Shown piece by piece: positions 44,392 to 51,315 of a stretch of DNA of 51,315 nt (position 1 is its first letter; every line of letters starts with the position of its first letter). This stretch comes from Candidatus Thorarchaeota archaeon (lineage in GTDB: Archaea > Asgardarchaeota > Thorarchaeia > Thorarchaeales > Thorarchaeaceae). The notes under the pieces were generated by a model. It searched no databases. It was given only the letters and a program-made list of their open reading frames with translations, and was not told the origin of the DNA. Made by a program: the position numbers and the translations under genes. The stretch covers positions 1 through 51,315 of the forward strand of contig JAUWOA010000006.1 of NCBI GenBank assembly GCA_030612365.1, given 5' to 3'.

Positions 44392-46542
44392 GTGATGTTC
44401 ATGGGTATCGACAAACAGAAGATTCCGAAGACGGATATGCCGATCATAAGGAGCCAGTTCAAACAGGCAGCTGCGGACGCGGAAACTGCTCTCAAGGAGA
44501 AGTCGATAGGCAAAGGAGAAGGCCCATTCGGTGAGCCAAGAGAGTTGTTGGCATTCGCCATTCTTGAAGCGTCGGGTGAGCTAAGCCAGATGACTTCAAC
44601 TGCTCAGTCTATCGCAGACAGACTGATGGATGTGTTCAGGGATGTTTCGCCCGAAATCTCAGTCGCAGATTATTTAGAAAGCGCCACTCTGTGTTTGTAC
44701 GGCTTCATCCTGGGAACTTACAATGAAGAAGACTTCAGATATATCTACAGATACTCTCTATCTAGGATTCGAAACCATGCCTCTATCGAGAGCTGGTTGA
44801 GAAAAGCCATTGTGTTCTATGGCCTCTGCAAGAATTTGAGGGGCCGCGACCTTCTCGATGAATTCAGGCATTGGATACGGTACTTGGGTGCGTCGGCATG
44901 CAATCACAATCTGCTGGTCGAAGTATGTGCTGCTTTCGGAGAAGACATTCGGAGCGTGGTTGCTGAGCCAGATTTTCGATTTGTCGATTCTCTACAAAGG
45001 CACCCTCAATACTTGGAGGAGGCAATGGAAGGAAAATCATACCTGGATGTGCGAAATGCGACGAAGGACTGGCTTCAAGACGTGATGTCAGAAAGATTGC
45101 TACGAATATACCAGAAGCGGATGTACAAGCTTGCTCAGGACGATATCAAGCAAGACGCTAACGTTGCAGAAGCCTTCGATGCCGTAAGATCCACCTTCAA
45201 GAAGGCAGGATTTAGGAGCGATAGAAAGGGTGTGTTTCCAGTCAGGCTGCAGAAACTAAGCACCCCACCTCCGGCGGAAGCGGTGGATCCCATTGTCTTT
45301 GAGATGATACCACAGAAGCTTCGCGTGAATCTTTTGCCATCAGTCGCATACTCGACTAAGACCAAGACTGTGGAGATAATCTTCCTCGGAGGGCCTCGAA
45401 TTGGCCGAAGTGGCATTTTGCTGAAGACAGATACTGGAGGTGTTTTGCTGGACTACGGATTATCTGTGGCAAACCAGCGCATACCTGAATGGGTGCCAGA
45501 ACTGGAGATGATTGATACGGTCCTGATCAGTCATGCCCATCTGGATCACGTCGGGGGGCTGCCAGTTCTCTACGACAATTACGATGGAAAGTGGTGTTCC
45601 ACCGGCGTGACCGGGGCGATAGCTATGTCGCTTCTTGAGGATGCACTCAAGGTGGGTACTCCGCTACCTCCAAGAAGAAGGGACCGATGGGATAGCATCT
45701 CCAAGTTCCGTCAAAGAAACATAGACAAGATAACCAAGAATCACGTACGCCTAGAAGTTGGAAAAAGCAGTGAAGTTGGCCCTGGAATTGTAGTCACGCC
45801 CATAGATGCAAGTCACATACCCGGAAGCGCAAGCTTCCTCCTTGATATCGAAGGGGTCAAGATTCTGTATACTGGCGACTTCAACACAGATAAGTCGGTC
45901 CTCTTTCCTGGAGCGAATCTTCCGACCAACAATGATGTCACTATCTTCGACGGCACATATTGGGGTAGGCAGGATTTCAATAGAGCAGATGTAACAGCAC
46001 ATGTTGCCGAGGTAATCGAAAGCCATGGCCCTGTTATTATTCCAAGCTTCGCAGTGGGGCGTACACAAGAAATGCTCATGATCTTGGAATCAATAGGAGT
46101 AACTAAGAGCAAGAATGTCATTGTGGCCGGGCTTGCTGAAAAAGTAACCAAGCTTGTGGGTGTCAAGGGTCACTGGCAGGGAATGAAGAAAAACAAGGTA
46201 GCGCTAGAGAAAGATGACATCCTTGTTGCAGGCAGTGGAATGATGAGCGGAGGATTGGCCAGGTATCATTTCAAGGAACATAGCAGAAATCCTGAAGCCG
46301 CGATTATCCTCTGCGGCTACTTGGCACCTAGAACTCCTGGGTGGAACCTTCTAAATGGCTTCGAACCGCACAAATGCCACGTTGAGTATGCGCGGCTAAG
46401 TGCGCACTCTTCTGCATCTCATCTGCAGCAGTGGGTAAAATCCTGCAGCGGCAAGAAGATTATGGTACACACACCATCGAAAAAAGTTCCGAGAGGTATT
46501 ATGATGCCGGATTACAAGCAAAAGATAATACTCTCTACGTAG
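44392..46542 (+). CDS. MBL-fold beta-CASP nuclease with a ~300-aa N-terminal helical extension
   Basis: TVLISHAHLDHVGGLPVL, SFLLDIEGVKILYTGDF, SFAVGRTQEML; N-terminal part unassigned. Confidence 0.82.
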   Translation: MMFMGIDKQKIPKTDMPIIRSQFKQAAADAETALKEKSIGKGEGPFGEPRELLAFAILEASGELSQMTSTAQSIADRLMDVFRDVSPEISVADYLESATLCLYGFILGTYNEEDFRYIYRYSLSRIRNHASIESWLRKAIVFYGLCKNLRGRDLLDEFRHWIRYLGASACNHNLLVEVCAAFGEDIRSVVAEPDFRFVDSLQRHPQYLEEAMEGKSYLDVRNATKDWLQDVMSERLLRIYQKRMYKLAQDDIKQDANVAEAFDAVRSTFKKAGFRSDRKGVFPVRLQKLSTPPPAEAVDPIVFEMIPQKLRVNLLPSVAYSTKTKTVEIIFLGGPRIGRSGILLKTDTGGVLLDYGLSVANQRIPEWVPELEMIDTVLISHAHLDHVGGLPVLYDNYDGKWCSTGVTGAIAMSLLEDALKVGTPLPPRRRDRWDSISKFRQRNIDKITKNHVRLEVGKSSEVGPGIVVTPIDASHIPGSASFLLDIEGVKILYTGDFNTDKSVLFPGANLPTNNDVTIFDGTYWGRQDFNRADVTAHVAEVIESHGPVIIPSFAVGRTQEMLMILESIGVTKSKNVIVAGLAEKVTKLVGVKGHWQGMKKNKVALEKDDILVAGSGMMSGGLARYHFKEHSRNPEAAIILCGYLAPRTPGWNLLNGFEPHKCHVEYARLSAHSSASHLQQWVKSCSGKKIMVHTPSKKVPRGIMMPDYKQKIILST

Positions 46543-46564: not shown

Positions 46565-48490
46565 TCACGCAACAACCTCAAGGACTGCATCCAACACTAG
46601 TTTCTGTACGACGAACCTCATTGCAGGAAGACTAACCCTCAACGACTTAACGACCTCATCAAGAGGCTTCGTACCATCACAAAGATTAACGAACTTGATA
46701 ACGACCTCACCATATGCCTTTCGAGTTTCCGCGTCTACATCTCCTATTTTCCTCAAATGGCTATCGTCCTTAATCTCAACTTTGAAATCAATCCAGCCAT
46801 ACTGCTCAAGAATCTGAAGACATCCAAGAATATGATCCCGCGGGAGGTCAAGGCTGCGGACCAGTCCACCCACAGTTTCGTTTCCTTCTATAGCCGATTT
46901 AACAGCTACGACGGCTGCTCCTACATCGCGATTCTTGAAAGGCAATGCTCTGCCGGCTTCTCGCGACCTGACGATGTAGTCCAGACTGACAGGTTTCAAT
47001 GGGGCCTTTGAAAGAATGGTGAATACAGAAGGTTCGAAGATGGTCGTATTTCCATCCCAATCATCCCATGTATCTGAGTACATCGTTTCAACGTCAGCCA
47101 GTAATGAAGCCATAGTCCTCCTATGTTCATCCTCTTGACTGTCATTGGTGACAACTAATGCCAGCACGAAATGATTTGACTTTTCGACCATGACTATATT
47201 GTCTTCGTGTTCAATGTTCTCAAGGGCATCAGTCTTGCTGTCGGCGCCCTCAGAGTCTCCGTCGATTCCGCTAAAAGAATCCAGTGCAGAGATTAAGGAA
47301 GTAACTGCGTTAGCGTCAATGAGTTCAGTAGAGTAGTCCAGATGATAAGAGGATTCAAACATGCCCTCCTTTTGCACAATAAGGAGTAGGTGAAGAATGC
47401 GGGCAGGGTCAGAAAACACTGAAACCGCTTCTGCATCGGCTTCTGAGGCTATTGATGACACATCTCTAGTTTCCCCCCCGGTTGTTGTGACTGTAGAAGA
47501 GGTGATTGAATCCTCCTGATCCTCTGAATAGGGAACCGTTTCATAACCACTTTCCGTGGCATCAATCCTCGTTTGAACGGCCTCAACTTCTTCAGTCCGC
47601 CGCCGCACGGTGATCATCTCACTCACCGGCAAGTCAGGTAACTGAACGCCCACCGTTTTCGCAGCCACTTCAAGCATAAGGCGAATGAATTCCTCTCGCC
47701 GGGTCTTATCAGTAGCGACCATTTGGAAAGTCGGTGCACCAAGTAGTCGTTTGATCTTATCACTCTGCATTGATTCGGGAAGGTCCTGTTTATTCGCGAT
47801 GATGAATAACGGAACCGCAGGTGCTTCCTTCTTGATGTTGCGAAGAAGCGACTTGGTCTGCATCACATTCCTGAAACTAGAGTCTGTGATGAGGAAGATG
47901 ACATCAGTGCCCTGAAAATAAAACGCCCATAGGTCCTGAAAAACGGCCTGTCCGGCGAAATCCCAAATTGTGACGAGGAAAGTTCCGAACTGTATGGTTT
48001 CAGACGAGTCCACAGCGACGTTGATTGTGGGTACATAGCCCCCTGGTGCGGGTTCCCGTCCAAATAGAAGTCTCAGCAGCGTACTCTTGCCAACACCACC
48101 AGAACCCACGAATGAAATCTTAAAGCGCGTGAAGATAAGCTCTCCAAGAATATCCTGTAGATTATCCTTGACGTACCCGATGCTTTGACCGCGAAGGGCC
48201 GTTTCTATTCGCGCTGCACCCTCTCGTGCCTTGTGATTGATTACTCGGTCCTCATCTCTGCCGTCCGTGACAAGCATGAGAATGAGGTCATCACCGACCA
48301 TGTGGTGGAAGACTTTGTGTTCACCGGCAAAGATAGGTGTGTCTTCTGAAAGACCCTCAGTAATCAGCAGGTCTTTGAATCCGTGAATGAACTCAACGAT
48401 TTCGCTCTCACCAAAGTCTATCTTCCAGAAACGTGTTGATGCCACAATGGCGCCTGTGTCTTTTTCAATCAGAAGGACATTGTGAATCAT
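46565..48490 (-). CDS. Arf/Rag-like small GTPase in a longin-GTPase-longin-winged-helix multidomain protein
   Basis: GSGGVGKST (48080-48106), YVPTI, WDFAGQ, NKQD, MVATDK; longin-like segments on both sides; wHTH repeats at the C-terminus. Confidence 0.82.
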   Translation of the reverse strand: MIHNVLLIEKDTGAIVASTRFWKIDFGESEIVEFIHGFKDLLITEGLSEDTPIFAGEHKVFHHMVGDDLILMLVTDGRDEDRVINHKAREGAARIETALRGQSIGYVKDNLQDILGELIFTRFKISFVGSGGVGKSTLLRLLFGREPAPGGYVPTINVAVDSSETIQFGTFLVTIWDFAGQAVFQDLWAFYFQGTDVIFLITDSSFRNVMQTKSLLRNIKKEAPAVPLFIIANKQDLPESMQSDKIKRLLGAPTFQMVATDKTRREEFIRLMLEVAAKTVGVQLPDLPVSEMITVRRRTEEVEAVQTRIDATESGYETVPYSEDQEDSITSSTVTTTGGETRDVSSIASEADAEAVSVFSDPARILHLLLIVQKEGMFESSYHLDYSTELIDANAVTSLISALDSFSGIDGDSEGADSKTDALENIEHEDNIVMVEKSNHFVLALVVTNDSQEDEHRRTMASLLADVETMYSDTWDDWDGNTTIFEPSVFTILSKAPLKPVSLDYIVRSREAGRALPFKNRDVGAAVVAVKSAIEGNETVGGLVRSLDLPRDHILGCLQILEQYGWIDFKVEIKDDSHLRKIGDVDAETRKAYGEVVIKFVNLCDGTKPLDEVVKSLRVSLPAMRFVVQKLVLDAVLEVVA

Positions 48491-48590
48491 TTGTCATTGG
48501 CCTCATTCATTCAGCACGGGTCTACAGCATTTATTGGTCTTTAGATGCTTCGCTTACAAGGGTCTTAGAAATACTAACTGTAAATGAAGA

Positions 48591-50306
48591 TTACGGGGAG
48601 GTAATGTTCGCGAATTTCAGCTTGATATAACCTCTGCGGTACAGCTCGGAAAACACAGTAATCAGGATTGCTTCATCGATGCCAACCTGTGATGCAATAC
48701 TCTCAATACTGCGATTGCCATCAGCGAATCCAAGAATCAGCTCGGAGTGTGAGTACAGGCTTAGCACTTGGGCATTTGGTTGCTGAACGACTTCTGGGAT
48801 ATCACTTGGGATAATCAGCAATTTCGTGTCAATTGCGCCCATTCTCTTCAGGTAGTGCAGCGCGCCAAGAACCATTCCTGGCCCTTTTCCAATCACCAGT
48901 TGCGAAAGCGGTGTCTGTCCATCGATGCTTTTCCAAACTGCCTCCAAGAACTTGCCCATCAAGTCAGACCGAAACCAAAGCCAATCAGGCTCCTTTATCC
49001 GAGTTGGACAGGTTCGGTCAGACCAATTTTCAGGGGGAAGAGTTGCAAGAAGCTTGATCATGAAAGGACCGTAAGAATACAGGTCCTTTGAGTCCTCAGT
49101 CTCCTCAGGCATTTCATCGAAGTAGATGTCTGGCAGGATTGAGAAGCGTGACCTCACCAATTCCGGATCTTCTCTATCGCCTGTTATCAAGGTGAAAATA
49201 AGGGTCTCGCGCTCCAAAATCGCGTATTTCAGCTCGCCAGCCCGAAACAGGGATGTTTCAGTGCGGCCGCTGTCATACAAATCGAACTGAGAGATTGCCG
49301 CAACGACATTGGGAGCTCGTCTTAGATACTCAGAATCCGATTCGTAGAAATAGGAAAAGTGTGGGGTCCCTGTCATCTTATCTATAACAAAGAATGCTTG
49401 GTGTCCTATGTCAGGACCTTCTTCCACGGGAGCAGGAGAGCCTTCTTCAGTGCTCAGATGGTCAACCACCCATGTTTCTCGAGCCAGTTCTGGATGCATA
49501 TCCGTGAATCCAGACATCGCCAATACGGAAAGTAGCAGGTCCATAGAGCCACTAGAAACCGAATCGCAAAGATCAATGTCTAGAAGGAGTTCTAGCCTGC
49601 GGGCGAACTCAAGCTCTTCATCGGATCCAGGAACAACTAGGATTGCTGCCTTGGAGTTGGCCCGTATCCTCTCGATGACCTCTCCCAGATCATGAGTTGA
49701 AGGCAATGGCGGAGCAACCACGAATACAAAGACATTCACCTGTTTCAGATAATCAAGCCATTTCGCCTTGGGAACTTCTGCTGTTTTATGCTGCATCACA
49801 ATAACATTGTACGGTCCAATTGAAACCGGTCTTGTATAAGGAGAGGATTTGTCACTTAGACGTTTTATGAGCATCGCCACGGCCGAGCCCGACCTGTTTT
49901 CAGAAGCGGGCGAAGAAGCTGAGAAGAAGCAGATAGATAGACGCTTCTTCAGGCTACCGGCAACTATGTCATTGAACGATTTTCTTGCAGCTCTTCTCGA
50001 TGTTTCCGACGCCAGCGTTTTGAATGCTTCATCCAGCTCTTGCATGGCAGTGATATCATCAGCCGAGATTTCAGATGAACTGGCGAACCCTGCAATCAAG
50101 GTCACCTTGTCAACTTGAACGAGGCAAACACTCCAGCCATCCACTTCAAGCTGTATGCACTTGTCAAGGGTTTCTACCTCGGCTAACTCGAAGAATTTCT
50201 GAATCACAGACTGAAGGACGTCCTCACTCGGAGCTTTTTTGATGAAAGATATGGAAGCTAGCACCTTTGTACCCCGAAGGTCATACAACGCAGCAGCTTC
50301 AAACAT
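48591..50306 (-). CDS. Paralogous longin-like / degenerate GTPase-like / longin-like / winged-helix protein
   Basis: Same domain order as 46565-48490 but no GKST, DxxGQ or NKxD; GNRSIESIASQVGIDEAILITVFSELYRRGYIKL wHTH. Confidence 0.65.
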   Translation of the reverse strand: MFEAAALYDLRGTKVLASISFIKKAPSEDVLQSVIQKFFELAEVETLDKCIQLEVDGWSVCLVQVDKVTLIAGFASSSEISADDITAMQELDEAFKTLASETSRRAARKSFNDIVAGSLKKRLSICFFSASSPASENRSGSAVAMLIKRLSDKSSPYTRPVSIGPYNVIVMQHKTAEVPKAKWLDYLKQVNVFVFVVAPPLPSTHDLGEVIERIRANSKAAILVVPGSDEELEFARRLELLLDIDLCDSVSSGSMDLLLSVLAMSGFTDMHPELARETWVVDHLSTEEGSPAPVEEGPDIGHQAFFVIDKMTGTPHFSYFYESDSEYLRRAPNVVAAISQFDLYDSGRTETSLFRAGELKYAILERETLIFTLITGDREDPELVRSRFSILPDIYFDEMPEETEDSKDLYSYGPFMIKLLATLPPENWSDRTCPTRIKEPDWLWFRSDLMGKFLEAVWKSIDGQTPLSQLVIGKGPGMVLGALHYLKRMGAIDTKLLIIPSDIPEVVQQPNAQVLSLYSHSELILGFADGNRSIESIASQVGIDEAILITVFSELYRRGYIKLKFANITSP

Positions 50307-50386: not shown

Positions 50387-51315
50387 TCAGTGTAATCTGC
50401 TACGCCTTCTGAGGAATTCATCCATTTTTAGCAGGCCCCTTGAGAGCCGCTGGTAATCTGAATTAAGCCAACTGCTTTCGTAATGGCATTCTGAAGATCC
50501 TCCGCCTGAAGGAATCATCGGCAAGTCTGAGATGGCCTCTGACACGTTAATTGGGGGCGGGTAAGCGGCTGACGTCACCCTTACGTCTTCTCGCCGACGA
50601 CCTCTTATGACGGGGGAAAATGAAGGAAGTGGCAACTCCAGACTCCTGCCTGTTCTGTTGGCGAGGACAACCAAGCGCCTACGTCTCTGAGGAACACCGT
50701 ATTGTTCTGCGTTCAACTGAAAACACTGACAACTGTATCCAAATGATTCCAGAGACTCGATTGCATTGCTTAGCACCTTGCCCTTCTGCATGTACCGCAT
50801 TCCAAGAACATTCTCGATTACGGCATAATCTGGCATGAACTCACTAACTATCTCCAGCATAGGAACAATTAAGCTGTTTCTCATGTCAGCCGGGTCTCGC
50901 TTTCCCGCCGTTGAGAAGCCTTGACACGGAGGGCCCCCTGTCACTATTCGAAGTGTTCGTCCTCCAAGCACACCCTCAATCGACTGCTTCAAGGATTCAT
51001 ACTGGACTTCATCAGCGATGTCAGCTTGGACAACAGTAGCATCTGAATGATTGTATTCCAGAGTCTTGCACATGTTGGTGTTGATATCTGATGCTAGGAC
51101 GACGCAGTGCCCAGTCTGCGAAAGGCCTTCTGATATGCCTCCCGCCCCTGCAAATAGATCAACAACTAGGCCCGCCTTAATTGTTTCTCCAATTGCTCTT
51201 GCCATTAATGGCGGCACAGCATTGCCAATCTGTTTCCTTATTGAGGTCGCACTGCCGAAGAATCTATACTCGTCCGGAAACGATTGAAGTCGTGCTGCCT
51301 CTCGATGACTTATCA
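50387..51315 (-). CDS. C5-cytosine DNA methyltransferase with permuted motif order (5' end outside window)
   Basis: Open frame from the window edge: ISHREAARLQSFPDEYRFFGSATSIRKQIGNAVPPLMARAIGETIKAGLVVDLFAGAGG; then GGPPCQGFS, IENVLG, VPQRRRRLVVLA. Confidence 0.88.
   Translation of the reverse strand, partial: ISHREAARLQSFPDEYRFFGSATSIRKQIGNAVPPLMARAIGETIKAGLVVDLFAGAGGISEGLSQTGHCVVLASDINTNMCKTLEYNHSDATVVQADIADEVQYESLKQSIEGVLGGRTLRIVTGGPPCQGFSTAGKRDPADMRNSLIVPMLEIVSEFMPDYAVIENVLGMRYMQKGKVLSNAIESLESFGYSCQCFQLNAEQYGVPQRRRRLVVLANRTGRSLELPLPSFSPVIRGRRREDVRVTSAAYPPPINVSEAISDLPMIPSGGGSSECHYESSWLNSDYQRLSRGLLKMDEFLRRRSRLH

Follow-up and report, generated by a model that had tools for sequence, protein, structure and literature searches.

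The question raised by two adjoining genes in a 51,315-nt stretch of DNA from a Candidatus Thorarchaeota archaeon (contig JAUWOA010000006.1; the window) is whether a small GTPase and a relative that has lost the GTPase motifs might work together as a single switch. Within its genome of 2.3 Mb the window is contig C50, and the nearest public protein matches are to Thorarchaeota genomes (87-91% identity); Thorarchaeota are close archaeal relatives of eukaryotes. On the minus strand, the gene of a 571-amino-acid (aa) protein comes first and is followed head to tail, after a gap of about 100 nt, by that of a 641-aa protein (571 and 641 hereafter):

48591..50306, minus strand: gene of 571, an open reading frame (ORF) for longin, predicted pseudo-GTPase, longin and two winged helix-turn-helix (wHTH) domains; AlphaFold2 (AF2) model with a predicted local distance difference test (pLDDT) score of 83; ortholog set A2
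46565..48490, minus strand: gene of 641, an ORF for longin, Arf-like GTPase, linker, longin and two wHTH domains; Arf PF00025, E 3e-18; ortholog set A1

For both proteins the order longin - G-fold - longin - wHTH - wHTH can be regarded as close to certain. With slightly more confidence than doubt, we infer that 641 and 571 are partners in one asymmetric GTPase switch, in which a live and a dead subunit are joined by their longins.

By its sequence, 641 is apparently a working Arf-like molecular switch that retains the glutamine of DxAGQ. The Pfam Arf model covers residues 121-254 (66 bits against a cut-off of 22), and the P-loop, DxxG with its catalytic glutamine and NKxD are all present. GxxxxGK[ST], DxxG and [NT]KxD are kept in 26/26 orthologs, among which the G motifs are invariant save for one G1 serine. 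The Gtr1_RagA profile falls just short of its cut-off on 641 (21.8 bits against 22). A preliminary description of this DNA had placed all the G motifs between two longin-like segments and had ended the protein in wHTH repeats, which the motif counts and the AF2 model (pLDDT 67, with fair longins and winged helices) bear out. Foldseek comparison of this model with PDB returned small GTPases, adaptor longins, MglB and, as a match at the level of the complex, GATOR1 chains. The domains of 641 are:

48176..48490, minus strand: longin 1, residues 1-105; AF2 order b-b-a-b-b-b-a, pLDDT about 70-90; 80% match to longin 1 of 571
47645..48136, minus strand: G domain, residues 119-282; GSGGVGKST, WDFAGQ and NKQDLP, all motifs in every ortholog; ratio of nonsynonymous to synonymous substitution rates (dN/dS) 0.025
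47408..47620, minus strand: low-complexity linker, residues 291-361; pLDDT <50 at 291-360; dN/dS 0.49
47081..47404, minus strand: longin 2, residues 363-470; AF2 secondary structure; within module A3 (see below)
46568..47053, minus strand: tandem winged helices, residues 480-641; AF2; 98% match to the winged helices of 571

A Pfam scan of 571 gave no family over cut-off. In its AF2 model a longin spans residues 4-101 and is followed by strands and helices in G-domain order (121-264); past a disordered linker come another longin (304-397) and a pair of winged helices that extend to residue 564. Longins 1 and 2 of both proteins take the longin/roadblock fold (b-b-a-b-b-b-a) in AF2 and have longin chains among their Foldseek matches; no Pfam longin model exceeds its cut-off on the longins of either protein. 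The domains of 571 are:

49992..50306, minus strand: longin 1, residues 1-105; AF2 elements E4-9, E14-20, H28-44, E50-55, E58-64, E69-75 and H82-101
49497..49952, minus strand: predicted pseudo-GTPase domain, residues 119-270; P-loop lost, PGSD in place of NKxD; Rossmann order in AF2; hhalign match to the 641 G domain; dN/dS 0.21
49113..49406, minus strand: longin 2, residues 301-398; AF2; dN/dS 0.085, the strongest constraint within 571
48609..49079, minus strand: tandem winged helices, residues 410-566; AF2; NPRL2 is the top PDB match of the module shared with 641 (E 0.0024)

The P-loop consensus GxxxxGK[ST] occurs in 0/27 orthologs of 571 and [NT]KxD in 1/27, so that the protein lacks the defining motifs of a small GTPase. 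At the NKxD position the orthologs have PGSD or a near variant, the surrounding VVPGSDxxLE is strongly conserved, and the domain has acquired conserved residues of its own. Among close relatives, dN/dS is 0.18 for the whole of 571, with the pseudo-GTPase domain and longin 2 at the values given above. Because these ratios are low, 571 is not a decaying gene and is kept by selection; a pseudogene was ruled out by the open frames and the conservation as well as by dN/dS. In Foldseek searches of PDB the top matches of 571 are Rag/Gtr chains (6.7e-7), in keeping with the likeness to Rag-type assemblies proposed in the preliminary description. Further matches are to SEA/GATOR1/KICSTOR chains (at the level of the complex), MON1-CCZ1, FUZ-INTU, adaptor and COPI longins and the AAGAB pseudo-GTPase.

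The ortholog profiles of 641 and 571 align end to end (553 columns, 98.5%, E 1.9e-15). Domain by domain, the two match at 80% for longin 1, 72% for the G-fold and 98% for the winged helices; by hhalign the 641 G domain matches the middle domain of 571 at 72-82% (E 1e-5 to 3.5e-5), and all comparisons across different domain types gave ≤1.1%. Against HAD, NadA, C5 methyltransferase, metallo-beta-lactamase (MBL) and exchanger families the profile of the 571 middle domain gave ≤1.3%; the first four of these controls rule out a chance likeness of the middle domain to any Rossmann fold. It had been claimed earlier that 571 repeats the domain order of 641 around a G-fold without G1 and G4 residues, and structure prediction had been named as a check on the second protein; profiles, AF2 and Foldseek agree in giving it longin and GTPase-like folds. 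The middle domain combines GTPase-family homology with a matching fold (hhalign and AF2, with Rag/Gtr and the AAGAB pseudo-GTPase as Foldseek matches), and we consider it very likely to be a pseudo-GTPase, predicted to bind no nucleotide. Its profile has no match to most other small GTPases of the genome; it matches a longin-GTPase paralog on contig C151 at 46% and another GTPase weakly, at 18%, which points to the longin-Arf-like subfamily as the most likely origin of the dead G domain. In this paralog (L107:3496-5274; G000:C151) a long acidic, apparently disordered tail replaces the second longin and the winged helices.

Orthologs of 571 are present in 37/47 genomes of the class Thorarchaeia, a count that leaves out G008, whose match is merely the homologous C-terminal half of 641. 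Of these 37 genes, 33 share a contig with 641 and sit immediately upstream of it, three are at a contig break and one (in G020) is separated, so the pair is conserved together, another point on which the preliminary description had asked for a check. Downstream of 571 in G020, an integrase-like frame occupies the place expected for 641 (L031:1-655). Outside the class, the profile search for 571 gave single-domain matches only. Joint loss of the cluster was considered as a sign of a functional unit and rejected: most such genomes are also without the neighbouring NadA gene, possibly an assembly gap. A mobile or viral origin was rejected as well, no relative of 571 having been found in viral contigs.

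The C-terminal halves of 641 and 571, in which AF2 places a longin ahead of tandem winged helices, have the layout of NPRL2/NPRL3; the preliminary description had overlooked that this half is a widespread module in its own right. A joint profile of these halves with stand-alone proteins (A3) has matches in 219/228 Asgard genomes. Individual A3 matches were listed for 12 genomes that lie at the edge of the class or beyond it, and most of these matches are to the longin part only; full-length longin-wHTH-wHTH matches are found in several genera beyond or at the edge of Thorarchaeia. Stand-alone genes of this kind, about 280-300 aa each, form tandem pairs with an NPRL2/NPRL3-like layout in most Thorarchaeia genomes:

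L113:3428-5125, L114:2140-3942 and, in the window's own genome, G000:C30:12257-14022: tandem stand-alone longin-wHTH-wHTH genes

NPRL2 is the best match of A3 in PDB by sequence, over the second winged helix only, and Pfam NPR2 (PF06218) exceeds its cut-off in 0/228 Asgard genomes. Filing 641 and 571 as NPRL2 or Rag was rejected, since the curated cut-offs are not reached. In a tree of C-terminal halves that of 641 groups with the stand-alone pair (92/89). The winged-helix halves have net charges of -1 and -3 and give weak Pfam matches to HTH_47, MarR and TrmB type families, and 3/27 orthologs of 571 weakly match PF19036 (FUZ/MON1/HPS1 longin). Elsewhere among Asgard lineages, a di-longin-like protein of 256-265 aa is encoded next to a small GTPase (L111:3315-4653 and L112:3271-4748); this protein matches the 571 longin-2 profile and, weakly, PF19036.

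The pair is flanked by genes of other functions:

50387..51315, minus strand: permuted C5 DNA methyltransferase gene, cut by the end of the window, which contains its C-terminal part; immediately upstream of 571 at a gap of about 80 nt; PF00145, E 1e-41
44392..46542, plus strand: 716-aa beta-CASP MBL protein; a conserved neighbour whose gene converges on that of 641, leaving 22 nt to the 641 stop

A truncated C5 methyltransferase was rejected, as the gene leaves the window and full copies are circularly permuted: motifs IX-X are read ahead of motif I, and one complete copy has 410 aa (L009:2873-4102). This gene adjoins 571 in 28/31 of the 571 loci with enough upstream sequence, usually at a gap of 60-90 nt. 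Beyond it lies the gene of a 744-aa Eco57I-type N6 methyltransferase, and the two are a conserved pair across Thorarchaeia (L009:566-4102), spanned by a single PADLOC model, MTase_II (1036 aa). G006 has no C5 gene, and there the N6 gene abuts 571; G039 and G040 keep 571-641 with neither methyltransferase nearby. NadA and HAD genes are likewise syntenic around the pair. The beta-CASP/MBL protein resembles aCPSF1 and type VII Cas14 models in its catalytic part only, and no informative Pfam match was obtained for its N-terminal 320 aa (a single one, E 0.18). The two methyltransferase genes, usual neighbours that the preliminary description had missed, suggest a link of the switch to DNA modification, to be treated as a lead and not as a finding.

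If 641 and 571 are subunits of one switch, they would pair via their longins, most likely longin 2, to give a heterodimer that is pseudo-symmetric, its G domain live in 641 and dead in 571. Rag subunits pair via their roadblock domains and NPRL2/NPRL3 via their longins. The longin fold also binds Arf-family GTPases, SRX on SR-beta and adaptins on Arf1; by analogy, each longin 1 may pack on its own G domain and gate exchange or hydrolysis. The dead G domain would offer a fixed docking or regulatory face, leaving a single site to switch, and the tandem winged helices, whose charge is close to neutral, might act as scaffold surfaces and not as classical DNA readers.

Several observations weigh against this proposal. 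Longin 2 of 641 and that of 571 match at only 0.6% by sequence, and these domains are identified from position and predicted fold only. The G domain of 641 is poorly modelled by AF2, so that its assignment comes from the sequence, and Foldseek TM-scores are low for both proteins because whole multi-domain models do not superpose. In the tree of C-terminal halves the branch of the 571 half is very long, and a tandem-duplication origin is neither shown nor rejected (641 and 571 halves held together, p-AU, from the approximately unbiased test, 0.34). Two genomes, G035 (a single contig) and G008, carry 641 and no 571; thus 641 can do without its partner, perhaps as a homodimer. Finally, synteny is high throughout the class, and adjacency is for this reason weaker evidence than it would be in fast-shuffling genomes.

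The upstream genes raise the possibility that the pair belongs to a DNA-modification or defence system, in which the methyltransferases mark DNA, the GTPase and pseudo-GTPase with their winged helices sense or read it, and GTP provides the switch, possibly with the beta-CASP nuclease. The near-constant C5 neighbour, the N6 gene that takes its place beside 571 in G006 and the PADLOC model across both would all fit. Such a role is nevertheless unlikely: conservation is class-wide and apparently vertical, whereas mobile defence is patchy; the beta-CASP, NadA and HAD neighbours are syntenic too; G039 and G040 hold the pair without either methyltransferase; the PADLOC matches of 571 and 641 themselves are marginal (E 0.008-0.01), with no stretch passing; and the winged helices are not basic, nor has 571 a relative in viral contigs. 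That 641 and 571 are independent wHTH transcription regulators with a sensor domain, adjacent through synteny only, seems highly improbable. The HTH_47, MarR and TrmB type matches are what it would draw on, but the winged-helix halves are neutral to acidic, their top PDB sequence match is NPRL2 and no DNA-binding regulator, and the adjacency of 571 and 641 persists where the upstream methyltransferases are lost.

Alternatively, 571 might be a transient regulator of 641 or of other small GTPases, a platform of the kind formed by MglB, NPRL2/3 or MON1-CCZ1 with GTPase-activating protein (GAP)-like or guanine nucleotide exchange factor (GEF)-like action, in which the dead G domain serves as an effector-like face and no obligate heterodimer forms. 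Longin and roadblock dimers do act as GAP or GEF platforms for GTPases (PMC10933270, PMC3521125). The matches of 571 to GATOR1 chains, MON1-CCZ1 and FUZ-INTU, the two genomes with 641 alone and the roughly 20 further GTPase matches of the window's genome, which could be clients, agree with this. The co-linear architecture and near-constant adjacency fit subunits of one assembly better than a free regulator, which we hold to be an improbable role for 571.

The closest published arrangements are from the Asgard archaeon MK-D1, whose GTPases include some joined to a longin or a roadblock domain and some placed between the two, as well as one operonic Rag-like pair predicted to dimerize via roadblock domains (PMC10933270). 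Compared by description, the fusions share with 641/571 an Arf/Rag-type GTPase flanked by a longin on one side and a second domain of longin/roadblock type on the other, and the Rag-like pair shares adjoining genes and a proposed heterodimer. The earlier statement that no described system has this kind of fusion was therefore too strong; the preliminary interpretation stands for the folds, the conservation of the two genes together and the Rag likeness, not for the novelty. The Thorarchaeia pair is a variant on already reported Asgard longin-GTPase-roadblock fusions, set apart by its live/dead asymmetry and the two winged helices at the end of each subunit, neither of which is mentioned for MK-D1 in the available part of that source. 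In the literature library searched, no paper joined 'Asgard' and 'pseudoGTPase'.

Other systems share only some of these features. The Rag/Gtr heterodimer likewise has a G domain followed by a roadblock/longin-type domain in unlike subunits, but both Rag subunits bind nucleotide and neither has an N-terminal longin or winged helices; 641 scores as Arf, below the Gtr1_RagA cut-off, and 571 has no Gtr1_RagA match. NPRL2/NPRL3 of GATOR1 (SEA complex) resemble the pair as two unlike subunits with a longin and tandem winged helices, and differ in having no G domain. The tri-longin Rab activators MON1-CCZ1 and FUZ-INTU are heterodimers with several longins per chain, yet have three of them, with no middle Rossmann domain and no winged helices. 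SR-alpha SRX/SR-beta and the Arf1-adaptor longins bring a longin fold together with an Arf-family GTPase, as 641 does, but on separate chains, without cis fusion or pseudo-GTPase subunit. A role in membrane trafficking has no direct support.

An 'NPRL2-like longin domain' is an annotated class of Asgard signature protein (PMC9834061), and the longin and tandem winged helices of Npr2/Npr3 have been taken as a fusion set in the eukaryotic stem, if traceable to the last eukaryotic common ancestor (PMC3521125). It is conceivable, though doubtful, that the pair is a living relative of a stage at which the eukaryotic Rag heterodimer still formed a single assembly with its GAP, NPRL2/NPRL3; its longin-winged-helix halves would be homologous to NPRL2/NPRL3, with switch and regulator fused in cis, and the stand-alone tandem genes of Thorarchaeia would be the archaeal NPRL2/NPRL3 counterparts. 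Any ancestral link to nutrient signalling is a lead and not a finding. Should the subunits pair, the archaea most closely related to eukaryotes would possess an asymmetric live/dead small-GTPase heterodimer whose longin, G and winged-helix modules are the same as those behind Rag/GATOR1 nutrient signalling and Rab activation in eukaryotes. Since Thorarchaeia and some other Asgard groups carry longin-wHTH-wHTH genes, an archaeal origin of this fusion, older than the eukaryotic stem supposed in PMC3521125, becomes directly testable.

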